The notes beneath the pieces are model-generated. The model was given only the letters and a program-made list of their open reading frames with translations. It was not told where the DNA came from and made no database searches. From positions 1,116,001-1,180,000 of the forward strand of contig NZ_QKNW01000001.1 of NCBI RefSeq assembly GCF_009663395.1: 64,000 nt of DNA, read 5' to 3'. Positions within the stretch are counted from its first letter, which is position 1; each line of letters begins with the position of its first letter. Below, piece after piece: positions 1-27,712 of this stretch. This DNA is from Halosegnis longus (GTDB lineage: Archaea > Halobacteriota > Halobacteria > Halobacteriales > Haloarculaceae). The position numbers were made by a program, and so were the translations under genes.

Positions 1-50
1 ACCGTCGTTACGTCCGTCGGTTCTAGGAATGGGGGAGACGAGAGGGTCAA

Positions 51-78
51 ACCCCCACCCCGTCGTTTCGGGTGGAAC
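51..78 (-). repeat. Origin recognition box (ORB), minus orientation
   Basis: Read on the minus strand this has the haloarchaeal ORB form: a TTCCAC half followed by GAAACGA and a G-rich tail. It matches the plus-strand box at 306-333 at 26 of 28 positions. The G-rich tails of both boxes point away from each other's start in the inverted arrangement typical of Orc1/Cdc6 binding. Binding itself is inferred from the family. Confidence 0.8.
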
Positions 79-122
79 ACGAATCATACCCGGGGTGGGG
101 GGGTCGGAACGCGTCGAACTAG

Positions 123-187
123 GCCTAGACAAGCCGGTATCTTTAATATAGATACCGGGTAACCAGACCCGTACTAGACAAAGCGGT
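123..187. other. AT-rich palindrome and direct repeat between the ORBs (candidate DNA unwinding element)
   Basis: A perfect inverted repeat, CCGGTATCT / AGATACCGG, occupies 134-142 and 150-158 around the AT-only heptamer TTAATAT. It is flanked by a direct repeat of about 15 bp containing TAGACAA and CGGT (123-137 and 173-187). It is the most AT-rich spot between the two ORBs, so it is the natural candidate for duplex opening. It could instead be a promoter or operator for an orc gene left of the window. Confidence 0.55.
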
Positions 188-305
188 CTGTCGAGTGGGG
201 TTGTGGTTGTTTCGTTGTGGCTATCGTCGTCTTCGTCGTTTAGGAGCCTTCTACTGCCGGTATCCTATTTCACCGCTATTCGCGGGTGGGGTGGGCAGCT
301 GGCGG

Positions 306-333
306 GTTCCACTCGAAACGAAGGGGTGGGGGT
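306..333 (+). repeat. Origin recognition box (ORB), plus orientation
   Basis: Shows the ORB core TTCCAC.CGAAACGA followed by a GGGGTGGGGGT tail. It is the inverted partner of the box at 51-78 (26 of 28 identical), about 230 bp away. A further G-rich run lies just upstream (284-293). Confidence 0.8.
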
Positions 334-617
334 CGGCGGCCGGCTTCCCCGATCGGTTCGAACGTCGGGCGTGGCCGTCGACAGTTTCGTCTCACAGATT
401 CGCTACGGAGTAGCGACATCCCTGCTGACTGTCCCTTTTGCTCTCGCCATCATCCATTCGAAGTCGTCCGCCGCTTGACCGACGAGCGACAGCCGCACGT
501 CTGACAGCGCGCCGTGAACAAGCAGCTCGGGTGAGTGTCGAAAAGGGCCATCCCCACTCTCCGGGCGACCGCTTCGGGTCGACTCGGCTAGCGTGCGCGC
601 CCGTGGTACAAGTACAG

Positions 618-707
618 GGCACGAAAGTATACGGCACGAAAGTATACGAGCCGAAAGTACACAGGCCGAAAGTATACGAGCCGAAAGTACACAGGCCGAA
701 AGTACAC
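618..707 (+). repeat. Six tandem copies of a 15-bp repeat between origin and arvA
   Basis: Units begin at 618, 633, 648, 663, 678 and 693. The first two are identical (GGCACGAAAGTATAC). The other four vary in the first four bases and at one T/C position, while CGAAAGTA is constant in all six. The exact 15-bp phasing is about one and a half helical turns. Open frames across it are only the repeat translated and have no other gene-like character. Possible roles are protein-binding iterons linked to the origin or a regulatory array for arvABC. Confidence 0.85.
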
Positions 708-980
708 GAGACGAGAAGCGCCCGACCGGAACGGCTACGACGACTAGACGAGACGCGAGAACAGACCAGACGTGCAACCAGACGTAAGCGAAGGCGGTGA
801 ATCCGACGGAGAAACGACGCGCGCGGCTCTGGAACGTCGGGCACGTTCGACCGGAACACGGCCGACAGACCGCGGGCAGACGGCAGTTTGACACCTGTTG
901 TCTGACACAAGCTTAAGTGCGCGTAGCGAAGTGATACGGACAGAGCGGCCCACGTCACAGACGGGCTGTCGGAGGAACGG

Positions 981-1622
981 ATGGGACTACTCACCAATAT
1001 CAAATCAAGCATCTCCACGGTGACGTCGAGTCTGTTCGCCGGGTCGGAGCCGAAGCGAATCGGTATCTATGGCCCGCCGAACGCAGGCAAGACGACACTC
1101 GCGAACCGTATCGCCCGCGACTGGACCGGCGACGCCATCGGTCCCGAGAGCCACGTGCCACACGAGACGCGCCGCGCTCGCCGCAAGGAGAACGTCGAAA
1201 TCAAACGCGACGGCCGCACCGTCTCCATCGACATCGTCGACACGCCGGGTGTCACGACCAAAATCGACTACGAGGAGTTTCTCGAACACGACATCGAGAA
1301 GGAAGACGCCGTCCGCCGGTCCCGCGAGGCCACGGAGGGCGTCGCCGAGGCGATGCACTGGCTGCGTGAAGACGTCGACGGCGTCATCTACGTGCTCGAC
1401 GCCACGACCGACCCGTTCACGCAGGTGAACACGATGCTCATCGGCATCATCGAGAGCCAAGACCTCCCGGTTCTCATTCTCGCCAACAAGACGGACCTCG
1501 AGGACGCGTCGGTCAAGCGCATCCGCGACGCGTTCCCCCAACACGAGACGATTCCGCTCTCCGCACTGGAGGGTGACAACATGGACGAAGTGTACGACAA
1601 AATCGCGGAGTACTTTGGATAA
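981..1622 (+). CDS. arvA: Vesiculating small GTPase ArvA (OapA), Era/Ras-like
   Basis: A 213-residue P-loop GTPase. Visible motifs are G1 GPPNAGKT (31-38), G3 DTPG (87-90), G4 NKTD (169-172) and a G5-like SAL (194-196). In Haloferax the homologue is known both as origin-associated protein OapA and as ArvA, the GTPase reported to drive extracellular vesicle formation; I carry that role over by homology and synteny. The ATG at 981 follows a Shine-Dalgarno-like GGAGGA at 971-976. Its stop overlaps the next start by one base, so arvABC reads as one operon starting beside the origin. Confidence 0.88.
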   Translation: MGLLTNIKSSISTVTSSLFAGSEPKRIGIYGPPNAGKTTLANRIARDWTGDAIGPESHVPHETRRARRKENVEIKRDGRTVSIDIVDTPGVTTKIDYEEFLEHDIEKEDAVRRSREATEGVAEAMHWLREDVDGVIYVLDATTDPFTQVNTMLIGIIESQDLPVLILANKTDLEDASVKRIRDAFPQHETIPLSALEGDNMDEVYDKIAEYFG

Positions 1623-1999
1623 TGCCCGAATCACAACGCTCCGACGACGGCGTCCAAATCGACATGATCAGCGCCGAGCGGATGGACGGACTCCGCACGA
1701 TGGAGAAAATCCGGCTCATCCTCGACAGCGTCCACGAGGGGAACATCGTCATCCTGGAGAAGGGACTCGACCCCGACGAGGAGTCGAAGCTCATCGAGGT
1801 GACGATGTCCGAGATCTCGCCAGACGGCTTCACTGGCATCGAAATCGAGACCATCCCGACCGGCGAGGAGACCGGTCTGTTCGGGAAGCTGATTGGCAAA
1901 TCCTCGAAGGGGAAACTGACGGTCATCGGGCCGGCAAACCGCATCGAGACGCTGCACAAAGACGAGAACCTCATCAGCACCCTCATCCACGACCAGTAG
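1622..1999 (+). CDS. arvB: ArvB/OapB, DUF2073 family protein
   Basis: A 125-residue soluble protein of the archaeal DUF2073 family, which is nearly always encoded directly after the Era-like GTPase. The start ATG shares its A with the TAA stop of arvA (TAATG), suggesting translational coupling. There is no enzymatic motif and no membrane segment. In Haloferax it is required together with ArvA and ArvC for normal vesicle production; the molecular role (effector or regulator of the GTPase) is not settled. Confidence 0.85.
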   Translation: MPESQRSDDGVQIDMISAERMDGLRTMEKIRLILDSVHEGNIVILEKGLDPDEESKLIEVTMSEISPDGFTGIEIETIPTGEETGLFGKLIGKSSKGKLTVIGPANRIETLHKDENLISTLIHDQ

Positions 2000-3190
2000 A
2001 TGCCCCACCAGTGCACCGCCTGTGGCTACACGTTCGCCGACGGCTCGAAGGAGATGCTCGGCGGCTGTCCCGAGTGTGGCGGCAACAAGTTCCAGTTCCA
2101 GCCCGACGGCCAGGGGTTCGACGACCCCGAAGAGTCTGACAACCCGCCCGAGTCGGCCGACCCCGGCGGTACCGCGTCCACGGTCGGACGCGCCGCGACG
2201 AAGGTCCGTGATTTCGTCTCCGGAGATGAACGCCCCGACGAGCGCGACAACCCCGACGACTCCGGCGACGCCACTCCCGGGGACTCCGACGACGCCGCTC
2301 CCGAGGACGACCGGACGGATGCGCCCTCACCCGGCGAGCCGACGGATACGACTCCACCGAGCGCGTCGACTACTACCCCGACGGACGAATCGACTACTAC
2401 GTCGACGGACGACTCCACCCGAAACGAGGGGGAATCGACGCCGGCGACCGGGGCAGACGCCGACGACGGGGACATGCCGAGTGCCGACGCTCCGTGGCCC
2501 GATTCCTCCGACGCGGCCGATCCCATCCGACGCGGTGGGCTCAACGAGGACGGTTCGGCCGCTGTCGACGACGCTACTCAGGACGATTCGGACGCGACAC
2601 CAACTGCGACCGCCGACGAGACAGCCGAGACCGCGGCCGACCCGACCGTCGACGAGTCGACCCCGGACGAACCCACTTCCCAGGAGTCCGACACCGACGC
2701 CGACATCATCGACGCTGACGCTGCTATGGAGTCCGACAGCGAGGACCGCGCACAGGCGAGTGCTCGCTCGGACATCGTCTCCGACGAGGAGCTTCCCGAC
2801 GCCGGCGGGACAGACGACACCGAAGCGACAGATTCTATCGAACAGTCGACCGACCGCGCCGAACAGTCGGTCGACGGCTCCGAACAACCGACCGACCGCC
2901 CGGAACAGCCGGACGAGGCCGACGGATTGGTCGACGGCGACGACCGTCCCAGTCCGTCCGACGGTCGAGTCGTCTCCGAGCCGAGCGAGGACGAGACGGA
3001 CATGGCCGAGCTTCGCGAACAGCTCAACGACCAGTTCGAGTCCATCAAAATCGTCGAGCCGGGCCAGTACGAGCTGAACCTGATGGAGCTGTACGACCGC
3101 GACGAGTACATCATCGCGCTGCGCGAGAACGGCCGGTACGTCATCCAGATGCCCGAGGAGTGGCTCGGCGACCGCGACATCGGCGAGTAG
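2000..3190 (+). CDS. arvC: ArvC/OapC zinc-ribbon protein with long acidic linker
   Basis: A 396-residue protein starting directly after the arvB stop. The N-terminus is a zinc ribbon with C5, C8, C23 and C26. Residues of about 40-330 are a disordered Asp/Glu/Ser/Thr/Pro-rich linker with low-complexity runs. The last ~65 residues (from about 332, MAELREQLN onward) form a compact, well-conserved-looking domain ending in an acidic tail. This order, zinc ribbon plus acidic linker plus C-terminal domain, is that of OapC/ArvC. The linker is where homologues vary most in length, so size alone is not informative. It probably acts with ArvA and ArvB at the membrane during vesiculation. Confidence 0.85.
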   Translation: MPHQCTACGYTFADGSKEMLGGCPECGGNKFQFQPDGQGFDDPEESDNPPESADPGGTASTVGRAATKVRDFVSGDERPDERDNPDDSGDATPGDSDDAAPEDDRTDAPSPGEPTDTTPPSASTTTPTDESTTTSTDDSTRNEGESTPATGADADDGDMPSADAPWPDSSDAADPIRRGGLNEDGSAAVDDATQDDSDATPTATADETAETAADPTVDESTPDEPTSQESDTDADIIDADAAMESDSEDRAQASARSDIVSDEELPDAGGTDDTEATDSIEQSTDRAEQSVDGSEQPTDRPEQPDEADGLVDGDDRPSPSDGRVVSEPSEDETDMAELREQLNDQFESIKIVEPGQYELNLMELYDRDEYIIALRENGRYVIQMPEEWLGDRDIGE

Positions 3191-13417: not shown

Positions 13418-14884
<1,467 letters not shown>

Positions 14885-15020
14885 AAAGACCGGGACCAGA
14901 GCTCTGCTCTGGCCCACCTTCGTGGGTTCGGTCGGCGACGCCGACCGGGCACCTTGGAACCATCAGGGCTACGATTGCGGCTGTCCGCTACGTTCGTTAG
15001 CGGGCCGTCGCGGTCGAGTT
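14885..15020 (+). other. 16S-tRNA spacer with 3' strand of 16S processing stem
   Basis: Contains the 15-base complement of the leader stem at 14957-14971, a GC-rich hairpin close to the 16S end (CCAGAGC/GCTCTGG near 14894-14912), and a short linker to tRNA-Ala. No gene. Confidence 0.85.
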
Positions 15021-15092
15021 GGGCCCATAGCTCAGTGGTAGAGTGCCTCCTTTGCAAGGAGGATGCCCGGGGTTCGAATCCCCGTGGGTCCA
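15021..15092 (+). tRNA. tRNA-Ala (TGC)
   Basis: A 72-nt cloverleaf without encoded CCA: acceptor GGGCCCA/TGGGTCC, D-arm with AGCTCAGTGGTAGAGT, anticodon arm CCTCC-TTTGCAA-GGAGG (anticodon TGC at the centre), and T-arm CGGGG-TTCGAAT-CCCCG. Its place in the 16S-23S spacer is the standard archaeal one. Confidence 0.98.
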
Positions 15093-15283
15093 TGTACAAG
15101 ACGAATCGTGCCCCTTATATGGGTCACCGTATTCGTCCGATGTACGACCGATGCACCACTCCGTGAAAGCGCGGGTGGGAAGGGTAGATGCACGCACTGG
15201 GGTTGCACCCAGGCGCTGCGAATGATACCGTGTGTACGTGCAATCCAGGCGCTCACTGGACCCGTTCACTGTGCTCAGTGATC
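15093..15283 (+). other. tRNA-Ala to 23S spacer with 5' strand of 23S processing stem
   Basis: 15234-15280 is complementary, with one internal bulge region, to 18196-18242 beyond the 23S. Paired blocks are CGTGCAATCCAG, TGGACCCGTTCAC and CTCAGTG. This forms the bulge-helix-bulge used to excise pre-23S. Nothing else is recognised. Confidence 0.85.
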
Positions 15284-18190
<2,907 letters not shown>

Positions 18191-18261
18191 CATCGCACTG
18201 AGACCCGTGAACGGGTCCAGGCGTTTACTGGATTGCACGCACACATTTGGTTAGCTACCCA
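18191..18261 (+). other. 23S-5S spacer with 3' strand of 23S processing stem
   Basis: 18196-18242 pairs with 15234-15280 (see the 5' strand). The remaining ~20 bases lead into the tRNA-like element that precedes 5S. Confidence 0.8.
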
Positions 18262-18303
18262 CCGACGATGGTCTTCATCGTGGTTCGATTCCACGAGTCG
18301 GCA
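18262..18303 (+). ncRNA. tRNA-like element at the 5' side of 5S rRNA
   Basis: Outer stem CCGAC (18262-18266) with GTCGG (18297-18301) encloses a small hairpin (GATG-GTCTT-CATC) and a perfect T-arm, CGTGG-TTCGATT-CCACG at 18279-18295. It ends two bases before the 5S start. In Haloferax volcanii the 5S precursor carries a tRNA-like structure here that tRNase Z recognises to form the 5S 5' end; this element matches that. It lacks an anticodon arm and is not a tRNA. Confidence 0.82.
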
Positions 18304-18425
18304 TTAAGGCGGCCATAGCGGCGGGGTCACTCCCGTACCCATCCCGAACACGGAAGATAAGCCCGCCAGCGTTCCGGCGAGTACTGGAGTACGCGAGTCT
18401 CTGGGAAATCCGGTTCGCCGCCTGC
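18304..18425 (+). rRNA. rrf: 5S ribosomal RNA
   Basis: A 122-nt 5S gene. Terminal helix TTAAGGCGGC / GCCGCC, loop sequence CCCGTACCCATCCCGAACACGG, and the GAAGATAAGCCCGCCAGCGTTC block are standard for halophilic archaea. It ends about 12 bases before the operon terminator. Confidence 0.96.
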
Positions 18426-18436
18426 CATTCATTCAA

Positions 18437-18468
18437 AGCCCACCAGTATTGTGCTGGTGGGCTTTTTT
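18437..18468 (+). terminator. rRNA operon terminator
   Basis: Perfect 10-bp stem AGCCCACCAG (18437-18446) / CTGGTGGGCT (18454-18463), seven-base loop, then a run of T (18463-18468). This is a strong intrinsic-type terminator directly after 5S. Confidence 0.88.
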
Positions 18469-18499
18469 CATTTACCGTGCGGCGATGCCGCACGTCCGA

Positions 18500-18522
18500 C
18501 CGGCGAGCCGCTGGCTCGCCGG
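18500..18522. repeat. Perfect 10-bp hairpin before tRNA-Cys
   Basis: CCGGCGAGCC (18500-18509) and GGCTCGCCGG (18513-18522) around GCT. No T-run follows, so it is not an obvious terminator. It is followed at 18527-18537 by the TATA-like CTATACTTAAC that probably serves tRNA-Cys. Confidence 0.7.
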
Positions 18523-18563
18523 ACCGCTATACTTAACCACGGGAGTACGTTACCCTCATCTGC

Positions 18564-18637
18564 GCCAAGGTGGCAGAGTGGCCTTACGCGGTCGCCTGCA
18601 GAGCGACTACACGCCGGTTCGAATCCGGCCCTTGGCT
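18564..18637 (+). tRNA. tRNA-Cys (GCA)
   Basis: A 74-nt cloverleaf: acceptor GCCAAGG/CCTTGGC with discriminator T, anticodon arm GTCGC-CTGCAGA-GCGAC (anticodon GCA), T-arm GCCGG-TTCGAAT-CCGGC. A TATA-like box ACTTAA sits about 30 bases upstream (18530-18535), after the rRNA terminator, so it likely has its own promoter. No encoded CCA. Confidence 0.97.
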
Positions 18638-26524: not shown

Positions 26525-27712
26525 GTGACCCGACGCAGTGACCGACTCGCGCTCGCGGCGGTCGTGTTCACCGTGTTGTTCTCGCAGGTGCTCCTGTATC
26601 CGGGCGTTCCGCAGTTGGTCGAATCGCTCGGCGGGAGCGGCGAACTCGACGCGAGCACGCCCTTCCTCGCCGCGGAGTTTGCGGGCTTCGTTCTCTTCGC
26701 CGGCGTCTGGGGAGCGCTGTCGGACCGCGCCGGCGAACGCGGCCGATTCATCTCCGCGGGCGCGGCCGGTGGTGCGCTCGCGTACGTCGCGCTCGCGTTC
26801 GCTCCCTCGATTCCGTTCTGGCTCGTCCTCGTCGTGCGGTTCGTCGGCGGCGCGTTCACCATCGGCGCGTTCTCGCTCGCCATCGCGACGCTCATGGACT
26901 TCGGCGGCGGCAACGGCCGCAACATGGGTGCGGCGGGCATCGCTATCGGGCTTGGAACGGGTCTCGGCGCGCCACTCGGCGGCCAGCTCTACCGGCTCGG
27001 TCCCCGCGTTCCGCTCGCGGTCGGTGGCGGGCTGTTAGTCGTCGTCGCGCTCGCCGGCCTCCGACTCCGGGAGCAGGCGACCGCGGGCGGTGGAACGGGG
27101 AGCCGACTGCTCGCCGTCGCGCGATCGCTGGCCGACGAGCCGACGCTTTCCGTCCCGTTCGCCTTCGGCTTCGCCGACCGGTTCACGGCGGGCTTTTTCG
27201 CCCTCGTCGGCGTCGACTACTTCCAGACGGAGTTCGGGCTCGACCCGGCCGCGACGGGCGCGCTGTTGGGCTGTTTCTTCCTCCCGTTCGCACTTCTCCA
27301 GTATCCGTTCGGCGTGCTCTCTGACCGCGTCGGCCGGGTCGGTCCCATCGCCGCCGGCTCGTTCGCCTACGGGGTCGTCATCGTCGCCGTCTCGCTTGCT
27401 CCCTCCGTGACCGCCGTCGCGGGGACGATGATACTGGTCGGGGCCTTCGGCGCGCTGTGTGCGCCGGCGACACTCGCGCTCGTCAACGATATCGCGCCCG
27501 CCGACGAGCGCGGCACGGCCACGGGCGGGTTCAACATCGTCGGCTCGCTCGGCTTCCTCGCCGGCAGCGTCGTCGGCGGTGGACTGGCGACTCAGTTCGA
27601 CTACACCACCGCGTTTCGGGTGGCCGGCGGGGCGGAGATACTGCTCGCGCTCGTGTTGTTACCCTTCTTGCTTCGACTCGAAACGGGGGGGTCGGACACG
27701 TTCGACCGGTAG
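26525..27712 (+). CDS. Major facilitator superfamily transporter
   Basis: A 395-residue membrane protein from a GTG start with about twelve hydrophobic segments in two six-helix halves. The loop after helix 2 has the MFS motif A form, WGALSDRAGERGR (about 60-72), repeated in the second half as GVLSDRVGRVGP. These motifs are typical of drug/proton antiporters and sugar or metabolite permeases; the substrate cannot be read off. Stands alone between nfu and the aminotransferase. Confidence 0.88.
   Translation: MTRRSDRLALAAVVFTVLFSQVLLYPGVPQLVESLGGSGELDASTPFLAAEFAGFVLFAGVWGALSDRAGERGRFISAGAAGGALAYVALAFAPSIPFWLVLVVRFVGGAFTIGAFSLAIATLMDFGGGNGRNMGAAGIAIGLGTGLGAPLGGQLYRLGPRVPLAVGGGLLVVVALAGLRLREQATAGGGTGSRLLAVARSLADEPTLSVPFAFGFADRFTAGFFALVGVDYFQTEFGLDPAATGALLGCFFLPFALLQYPFGVLSDRVGRVGPIAAGSFAYGVVIVAVSLAPSVTAVAGTMILVGAFGALCAPATLALVNDIAPADERGTATGGFNIVGSLGFLAGSVVGGGLATQFDYTTAFRVAGGAEILLALVLLPFLLRLETGGSDTFDR

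Follow-up and report, generated by a model that had tools for sequence, protein, structure and literature searches.

The chromosomal origins closest to the one described here are those of Halobacterium NRC-1 (the orc7 origin), Haloarcula hispanica (oriC1-cdc6A), and Haloferax volcanii (oriC1), which share with it an adjacent Orc1-type gene, inverted ORBs with G-strings around an AT-richer stretch, a conserved gene neighbourhood, and a change in skew. The published model places inverted ORBs, equipped with a halophile G-string, beside an orc/cdc6 gene, and an earlier origin survey searched the intergenic regions beside such genes (both PMC3528665). In Haloarcula hispanica, the extended G-string is described as essential for oriC1 activity, and a G-rich inverted repeat as an enhancer of oriC1 that is non-essential (PMC3936714). 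The Halobacterium NRC-1 origin has a 33-bp inverted repeat around 189 bp (PMC1906834), compared with a spacer of 221 bp here. Inverted GC skew is given as typical of haloarchaea in a figure legend (PMC2841640), and the neighbouring operon oapABC was renamed arvABC after work on vesicle formation (PMC10927574). Following this published work, we expect that Orc1 would bind the two inverted ORBs with their G-strings and load MCM helicase within their AT-richer 221-bp spacer, whereupon replication forks would depart from oriC1 in both directions.

Initiator boxes are also described at other sites. In Haloarcula hispanica, oriC2D, a 722-bp intergenic region next to cdc6E, includes 11 ORBs outside the origin proper, for which initiator titration has been proposed; in Escherichia coli, the DnaA boxes of datA and of the dnaA promoter exert feedback from a chromosomal locus and from the initiator gene itself (PMC3936714). 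Both bear a likeness to a second element that we describe below, an inverted ORB pair inside polD1, the gene for DP1. That element is unlike oriC2D in being one inverted pair in coding sequence, up to 129 kb from oapB, and it differs from the datA/dnaA system, whose initiator and boxes are unrelated to those of haloarchaea, where we infer the function only.

The window, by which we mean the whole 64,000-nt stretch of DNA analysed (C1:1116001-1180000), belongs to a genome of 2.77 Mb in three contigs, whose OapB shares 99% identity with that of Halosegnis rubeus. The locus at its start is, we are confident, oriC1, the ancestral origin of haloarchaeal chromosomes, represented by its right-hand part in a genome near that species. 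The divergent orc1 and oapABC are separated by 1,427 bp, and this gap is the complete origin; window base 1 falls inside it, and the window edge splits the origin, with only the right-hand part of the gap contained in the window. Its features, in window coordinates, are as follows:

51 to 81, minus strand: left ORB of oriC1 with extended G-string, core at 57-77.
303 to 333, plus strand: right ORB of oriC1 with extended G-string, core at 307-327.
82 to 302, no strand: inter-ORB region, candidate duplex unwinding region, 55.2% GC.
134 to 158, no strand: palindrome between the ORBs, from the repeat search and relatives.
92 to 103, plus strand: G-rich tract on the inner side of the left ORB, direct with respect to 284-295.
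284 to 295, plus strand: G-rich tract on the inner side of the right ORB, from reading of the sequence.
610 to 714, plus strand: tandem array of 15-bp repeats, about seven in number, between the right ORB and oapA, from the repeat search.
981 to 1622, plus strand: oapA (arvA), small GTPase.
1622 to 1999, plus strand: oapB, Pfam OapB at 5.4e-42.
2000 to 3190, plus strand: oapC, Pfam OapC at 1.9e-26.
2413 to 2433, plus strand: weak ORB-like word in oapC, 2 mismatches, possibly chance.

An earlier, sequence-only reading of this DNA had proposed a probable origin from two 28-nt boxes (51-78 and 306-333) in opposite orientation and complementary at 26/28 positions, and these are as it claimed. The repeat search lengthens them to arms of 31 nt (51-81 and 303-333), complementary at 28/31 positions (90%) around a spacer of 221 nt. 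Shuffled and simulated sequences support the pair: with up to 3 mismatches, the box has 2 matches in the 64-kb window and 0 in 100 shuffles, while a search for inverted pairs of 31-nt arms (28/31 or better, within 400 nt) returned the origin pair as the sole match in the window and 0 in 5 order-1 simulated windows. Across the whole genome, the ORB core has 14 matches at up to 3 mismatches, against 0 for the reversed pattern. Both window ORBs carry the extended halophile G-string. The palindrome that had been noted between them is real (12-nt arms, 92%), and the region around it is AT-richer, although modestly so: the spacer between the ORB arms has 55.2% GC versus 65.5% for the whole window. 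The palindrome arms are kept in the two closest relatives (L040 and L041) and were not found in relatives L042-L045. None of the six closest relatives that were checked (L040-L045) showed the tandem repeats at 610-714, which are apparently recent.

The genes and the strand bias around these boxes agree with an origin. An orc gene had been expected immediately left of base 1, and orc1 (C1:1113910-1115553, minus strand) lies 448 bp away, divergent from oapABC; it encodes a 547-aa Orc1-type initiator that passes the NCBIfam ORC1 equivalog cut-off (651.6 versus 501 bits). To the right of the ORBs, Pfam identifies OapB and OapC, and the first gene is a small GTPase, which confirms the operon named earlier as oapABC/arvABC. 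GC skew, which had been suggested as a check, changes sign at the origin: over 404 kb in 10-kb bins, it is positive in 20/20 bins on the left and negative in 17/21 on the right, where the last bin is 4 kb and the bin with the rRNA operon is one of the four exceptions. This bias is opposite to bacterial polarity and agrees with the inverted skew of haloarchaea. The sequence-only reading had named the lack of a nearby orc gene and of a skew change as what would speak against an origin; an orc gene and a skew change are both there. A complete rRNA operon (16S, 23S, 5S, and two tRNAs) occupies window positions 13418-18637; its start lies 13 kb from oriC1, and its transcription runs away from the origin.

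Every feature of haloarchaeal oriC1 that can be tested from this sequence was found except one, the G-rich inverted repeat, which is non-essential. In Haloarcula hispanica the G-rich tracts are inverted (PMC3936714), whereas the two tracts of the window (92-103 and 284-295) share a strand and are direct, and a repeat of the Haloarcula hispanica type is absent between the window ORBs. The arrangement is otherwise widely conserved. In a survey of 80 OapB loci taken from named genomes, Orc1 is encoded upstream, by the cut-off, in 63; the remaining 17 lack it, some of them because the contig ends. An inverted ORB pair lies between orc1 and oapA at 62 of the 63 loci, spaced 180-318 nt start to start and with the G-string on both boxes at 57/62; at the exception, L114, the pair is wider. 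The window origin is an ordinary one, a further example of a well-described origin. Two side observations may be added. Another ORB pair, direct in orientation, with 49 nt from one box to the other and some 5 kb away from oriC1, is common to two Haladaptatus genomes (G006, C1:1807180 and 1807229; G007, C1:2754280 and 2754329). About 3 kb left of the window lies an ORF (L024:2-2953, minus strand) that we take to be PolD large-subunit-like, and which continues into a cysteine-led stretch, presumably resembling the start of an intein.

The same genome (G000) holds further Orc1/Cdc6-like genes:

C1:1100023-1101063 (L123): Orc1/Cdc6-like gene, same contig as orc1 and 13 kb to its left.
C1:1576192-1577271: Orc1/Cdc6-like gene.
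C2:79907-81034: Orc1/Cdc6-like gene.
C3:58857-59975: Orc1/Cdc6-like gene.
C2:12201-13160: Orc1/Cdc6-like gene.
C2:49605-50558: Orc1/Cdc6-like gene, below the TIGR02928 cut-off.

Because of these genes, oriC1 need not be the sole or main origin in use, and, with one of them so close to orc1, a single origin need not set the fork direction window-wide; the earlier placement of a likely replication start here holds, but its extension to the leading-strand direction of the whole window need not. The additional genes, together with the dormant origins reported in Haloferax mediterranei (PMC4595724), also lend some weight to the idea that the locus is a conserved orc1/oap regulatory region with a dormant origin, and that another orc gene drives replication. 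We consider this very improbable, since the sign change in skew sits at the window locus.

The ORBs of this genome are not confined to oriC1. An inverted ORB pair (C1:1042146 and C1:1042203) lies 75 kb from oapB within an ORF that NCBIfam identifies, at 947 bits, as the small subunit of DNA polymerase II (PolD), DP1. Its G-rich ends face outward, as at oriC1, but 36 nt separate the boxes, neither of which has the extended G-string. A pattern with this exact gap matches 211/392 Halobacteriales genomes in 57/95 genera, with 0 matches for a control pattern; in a draw of 392 genomes from the phylum, it gave 35 matches, all among the 81 Halobacteriales, and 0/311 in genomes from other orders. All 30 of the 30 pattern loci examined are DP1, with the pair always in the 5' part of the gene and in the same frame. 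DP1 genes were also collected by protein search, so that selection was not by DNA; the searches matched 96/96 and 59/60 genomes, and among the best 30 loci of each (n = 60), the pair is found at a spacing of 54 or 57 in 55/60 genes with up to 5 mismatches and in 49/60 with up to 3. Two of the 60 (L230 and L234) have a good left box and a poor partner at a different spacing, and three (L233, L235, and L236) have no pair. The spacings in L211, L220, L227, L247, L266, L271, and L261 are 54, 75, or 78 nt, variants that amount to whole-codon changes between the boxes, and in G017, G046, and G380 (L281, L287, and L286) the right box is perfect and the left box is lost. In a review, DP1 is described as lying near oriC1 in Haloferax volcanii, in a text whose relevant part makes no mention of ORBs within DP1 (PMC7776575). 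We did not find the DP1 pair and the orc1 start box discussed below in the literature searched, which included few subscription papers, and their absence from print is a possibility only.

An inverted repeat in a conserved gene may be read at the level of protein, RNA, or DNA. The pair might simply be the visible part of two protein motifs, with the likeness to ORBs incidental, and some residues are indeed constant or nearly so (P, V, S, G and P, E, T, G). Three lines of evidence led us to reject this reading, which we regard as scarcely credible: (i) The ORB motif dictates third codon positions, including those of codons whose residue varies. At six box codons, the third base that the ORB demands occurs in 54/54 unique pairs, compared with 3.9 to 15.5 expected from the codon use of the individual genes. 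Eight residues (V, S, A, T, P, I, G, and R) are encoded by the right box's first codon, which precedes CCA and ends in T in 54/54 (3.9 expected), while the codon preceding GGG encodes seven residues and ends in G in 54/54 (29.8 expected); GTT, CCA, and GGA codons are the rule in the boxes and rare elsewhere in the same genes. (ii) Synonymous recoding of 60 genes, ten times each (600 sequences), yields best pairs with 4 to 16 mismatches and none with 3 or fewer, a level reached by 50/60 real DP1 genes in this comparison. (iii) Third positions have an entropy of 1.67 bits in the flanks but 0.5-0.6 bits in the boxes, and an alignment of 51 genes anchored on the boxes shows an almost unconstrained linker (mean amino-acid entropy 3.0 bits), unlike the boxes. 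A hairpin in the DP1 mRNA would likewise present inverted repeats, here with a 36-nt loop, but the variable positions should then covary from box to box. They do so at position 8 only (40 versus 26.7 in shuffles), the others being near shuffle level, which makes an RNA hairpin most unlikely, and we rejected it.

We consider it probable that Orc1 binds the DP1 pair. A bearing on its function comes from gene position, which we compared in 74 genomes with DP1 and oapB positions and a DP1 sequence; five oapB positions (G002, G006, G009, G010, and G011) were estimated from ORB coordinates. DP1 lies within 12 kb of oapB in 54/74 genomes (8.4 kb in G440 and, mid-contig, 6.3 kb in G186, for example). 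Where DP1 is no more than 130 kb from oapB, 56/66 genomes have a pair with up to 3 mismatches, compared with 0/8 where DP1 is further off or on another contig (Fisher 2.9e-06, with the 130-kb cut chosen post hoc; at a 100-kb cut, 55/65 near versus 1/9 far). The eight far cases comprise distances of 147.6, 225 (G264), 308, and 444 kb, with contigs taken as closed, and four genomes with DP1 on another contig; they represent about four independent events because four share one genus and two another. In G317 (308 kb), a decayed pair of 4 mismatches still keeps the old spacing. In genus g12, the pair of G293, where DP1 is at 5.6 kb, is fair (3 mismatches, spacing 78), whereas in G008, G012, G013, and G349 DP1 is on a different contig and the pair is gone. 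The pair is also lost or weak in 10/66 genomes despite DP1 being near the origin, and it is therefore not universally required.

ORBs recur at orc1 itself. An ORB-like box (up to 5 mismatches) lies near the orc1 5' end in 59/63 loci, versus 2/63 for the reversed motif, and in 47/63 it ends 3-13 nt before an in-frame start. In the window's genome, this box is at C1:1115566-1115586, 12 nt before the ATG, and lacks the extended G-string; a second weak box at C1:1115749 is kept in the two closest relatives. Orc1 may thus bind its own start site and repress orc1, autoregulation being the natural inference from such a position. More generally, ORBs are dense near the origin. We counted cores with up to 2 mismatches on the oriC1 contig of 14 genomes (our own and 13 reached via named loci, mostly complete, not randomly sampled, and partly related), leaving out 15 DP1-internal matches: there are 32 over 0.64 Mb (49.7 per Mb) at 2-25 kb from oriC1, 3.3 per Mb at 25-100 kb, 2.7 per Mb at 100-300 kb, and 11 over 35.69 Mb (0.31 per Mb) beyond 300 kb. 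Isolated ORB-like words with 2-3 mismatches that occur in coding regions around the origin (window 2413-2433 and 27672-27692; C1:1187572) may be due to chance and were not counted as elements.

Two roles for the DP1 pair deserve weighing. The pair may be an Orc1 titration site, copied early after oriC1 fires, such that the two new copies would bind Orc1 and damp re-initiation, in a way comparable to datA acting on DnaA or to the role proposed for oriC2D. Its retention near oapB and degradation far from it, the contrast within genus g12, and the density of ORB cores around oriC1 all favour this proposal, as does the lack in the DP1 boxes of the extended G-string reported as essential for oriC1 activity in Haloarcula hispanica (PMC3936714). 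We put it forward tentatively, because the pair consists of two boxes only and is not the many-box cluster that characterizes titration loci, because the far cases reduce to so few independent events, and because several genomes have lost the pair with DP1 still near. Alternatively, the pair could be an operator in polD1, at which bound Orc1 would repress or time DP1 transcription. Its constant place and frame in the 5' part of the gene and the comparable box before the orc1 start codon fit such a role. An operator, however, should travel with its gene, and the pair has decayed in 8/8 genomes with a relocated DP1, which leads us to consider an operator rather unlikely. We think that titration is the most likely role, that of a polD1 operator the next, and a structural or other role comes after these. 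Orc1 bound at the orc1 start box and at the DP1 pair would feed back on orc1 expression and on free Orc1.

On balance, we see about even grounds for and against the fuller proposal that the polD1 coding sequence holds a cis-acting replication-control element, an inverted ORB pair that resembles the origin, has a 36-bp spacer, and is kept at the nucleotide level in much of the order while polD1 is linked to oriC1, which, with the ORB at the orc1 start and the dense ORBs within 25 kb, would form an Orc1 feedback circuit. The control that limits the number of firings per origin in archaea is poorly understood, and origin surveys restricted to intergenic regions would overlook the DP1 pair. It offers a concrete cis element, removable by synonymous recoding and lost when polD1 leaves the origin, and it could be part of the reason that polD1 remains near oriC1 in most of the haloarchaea examined.
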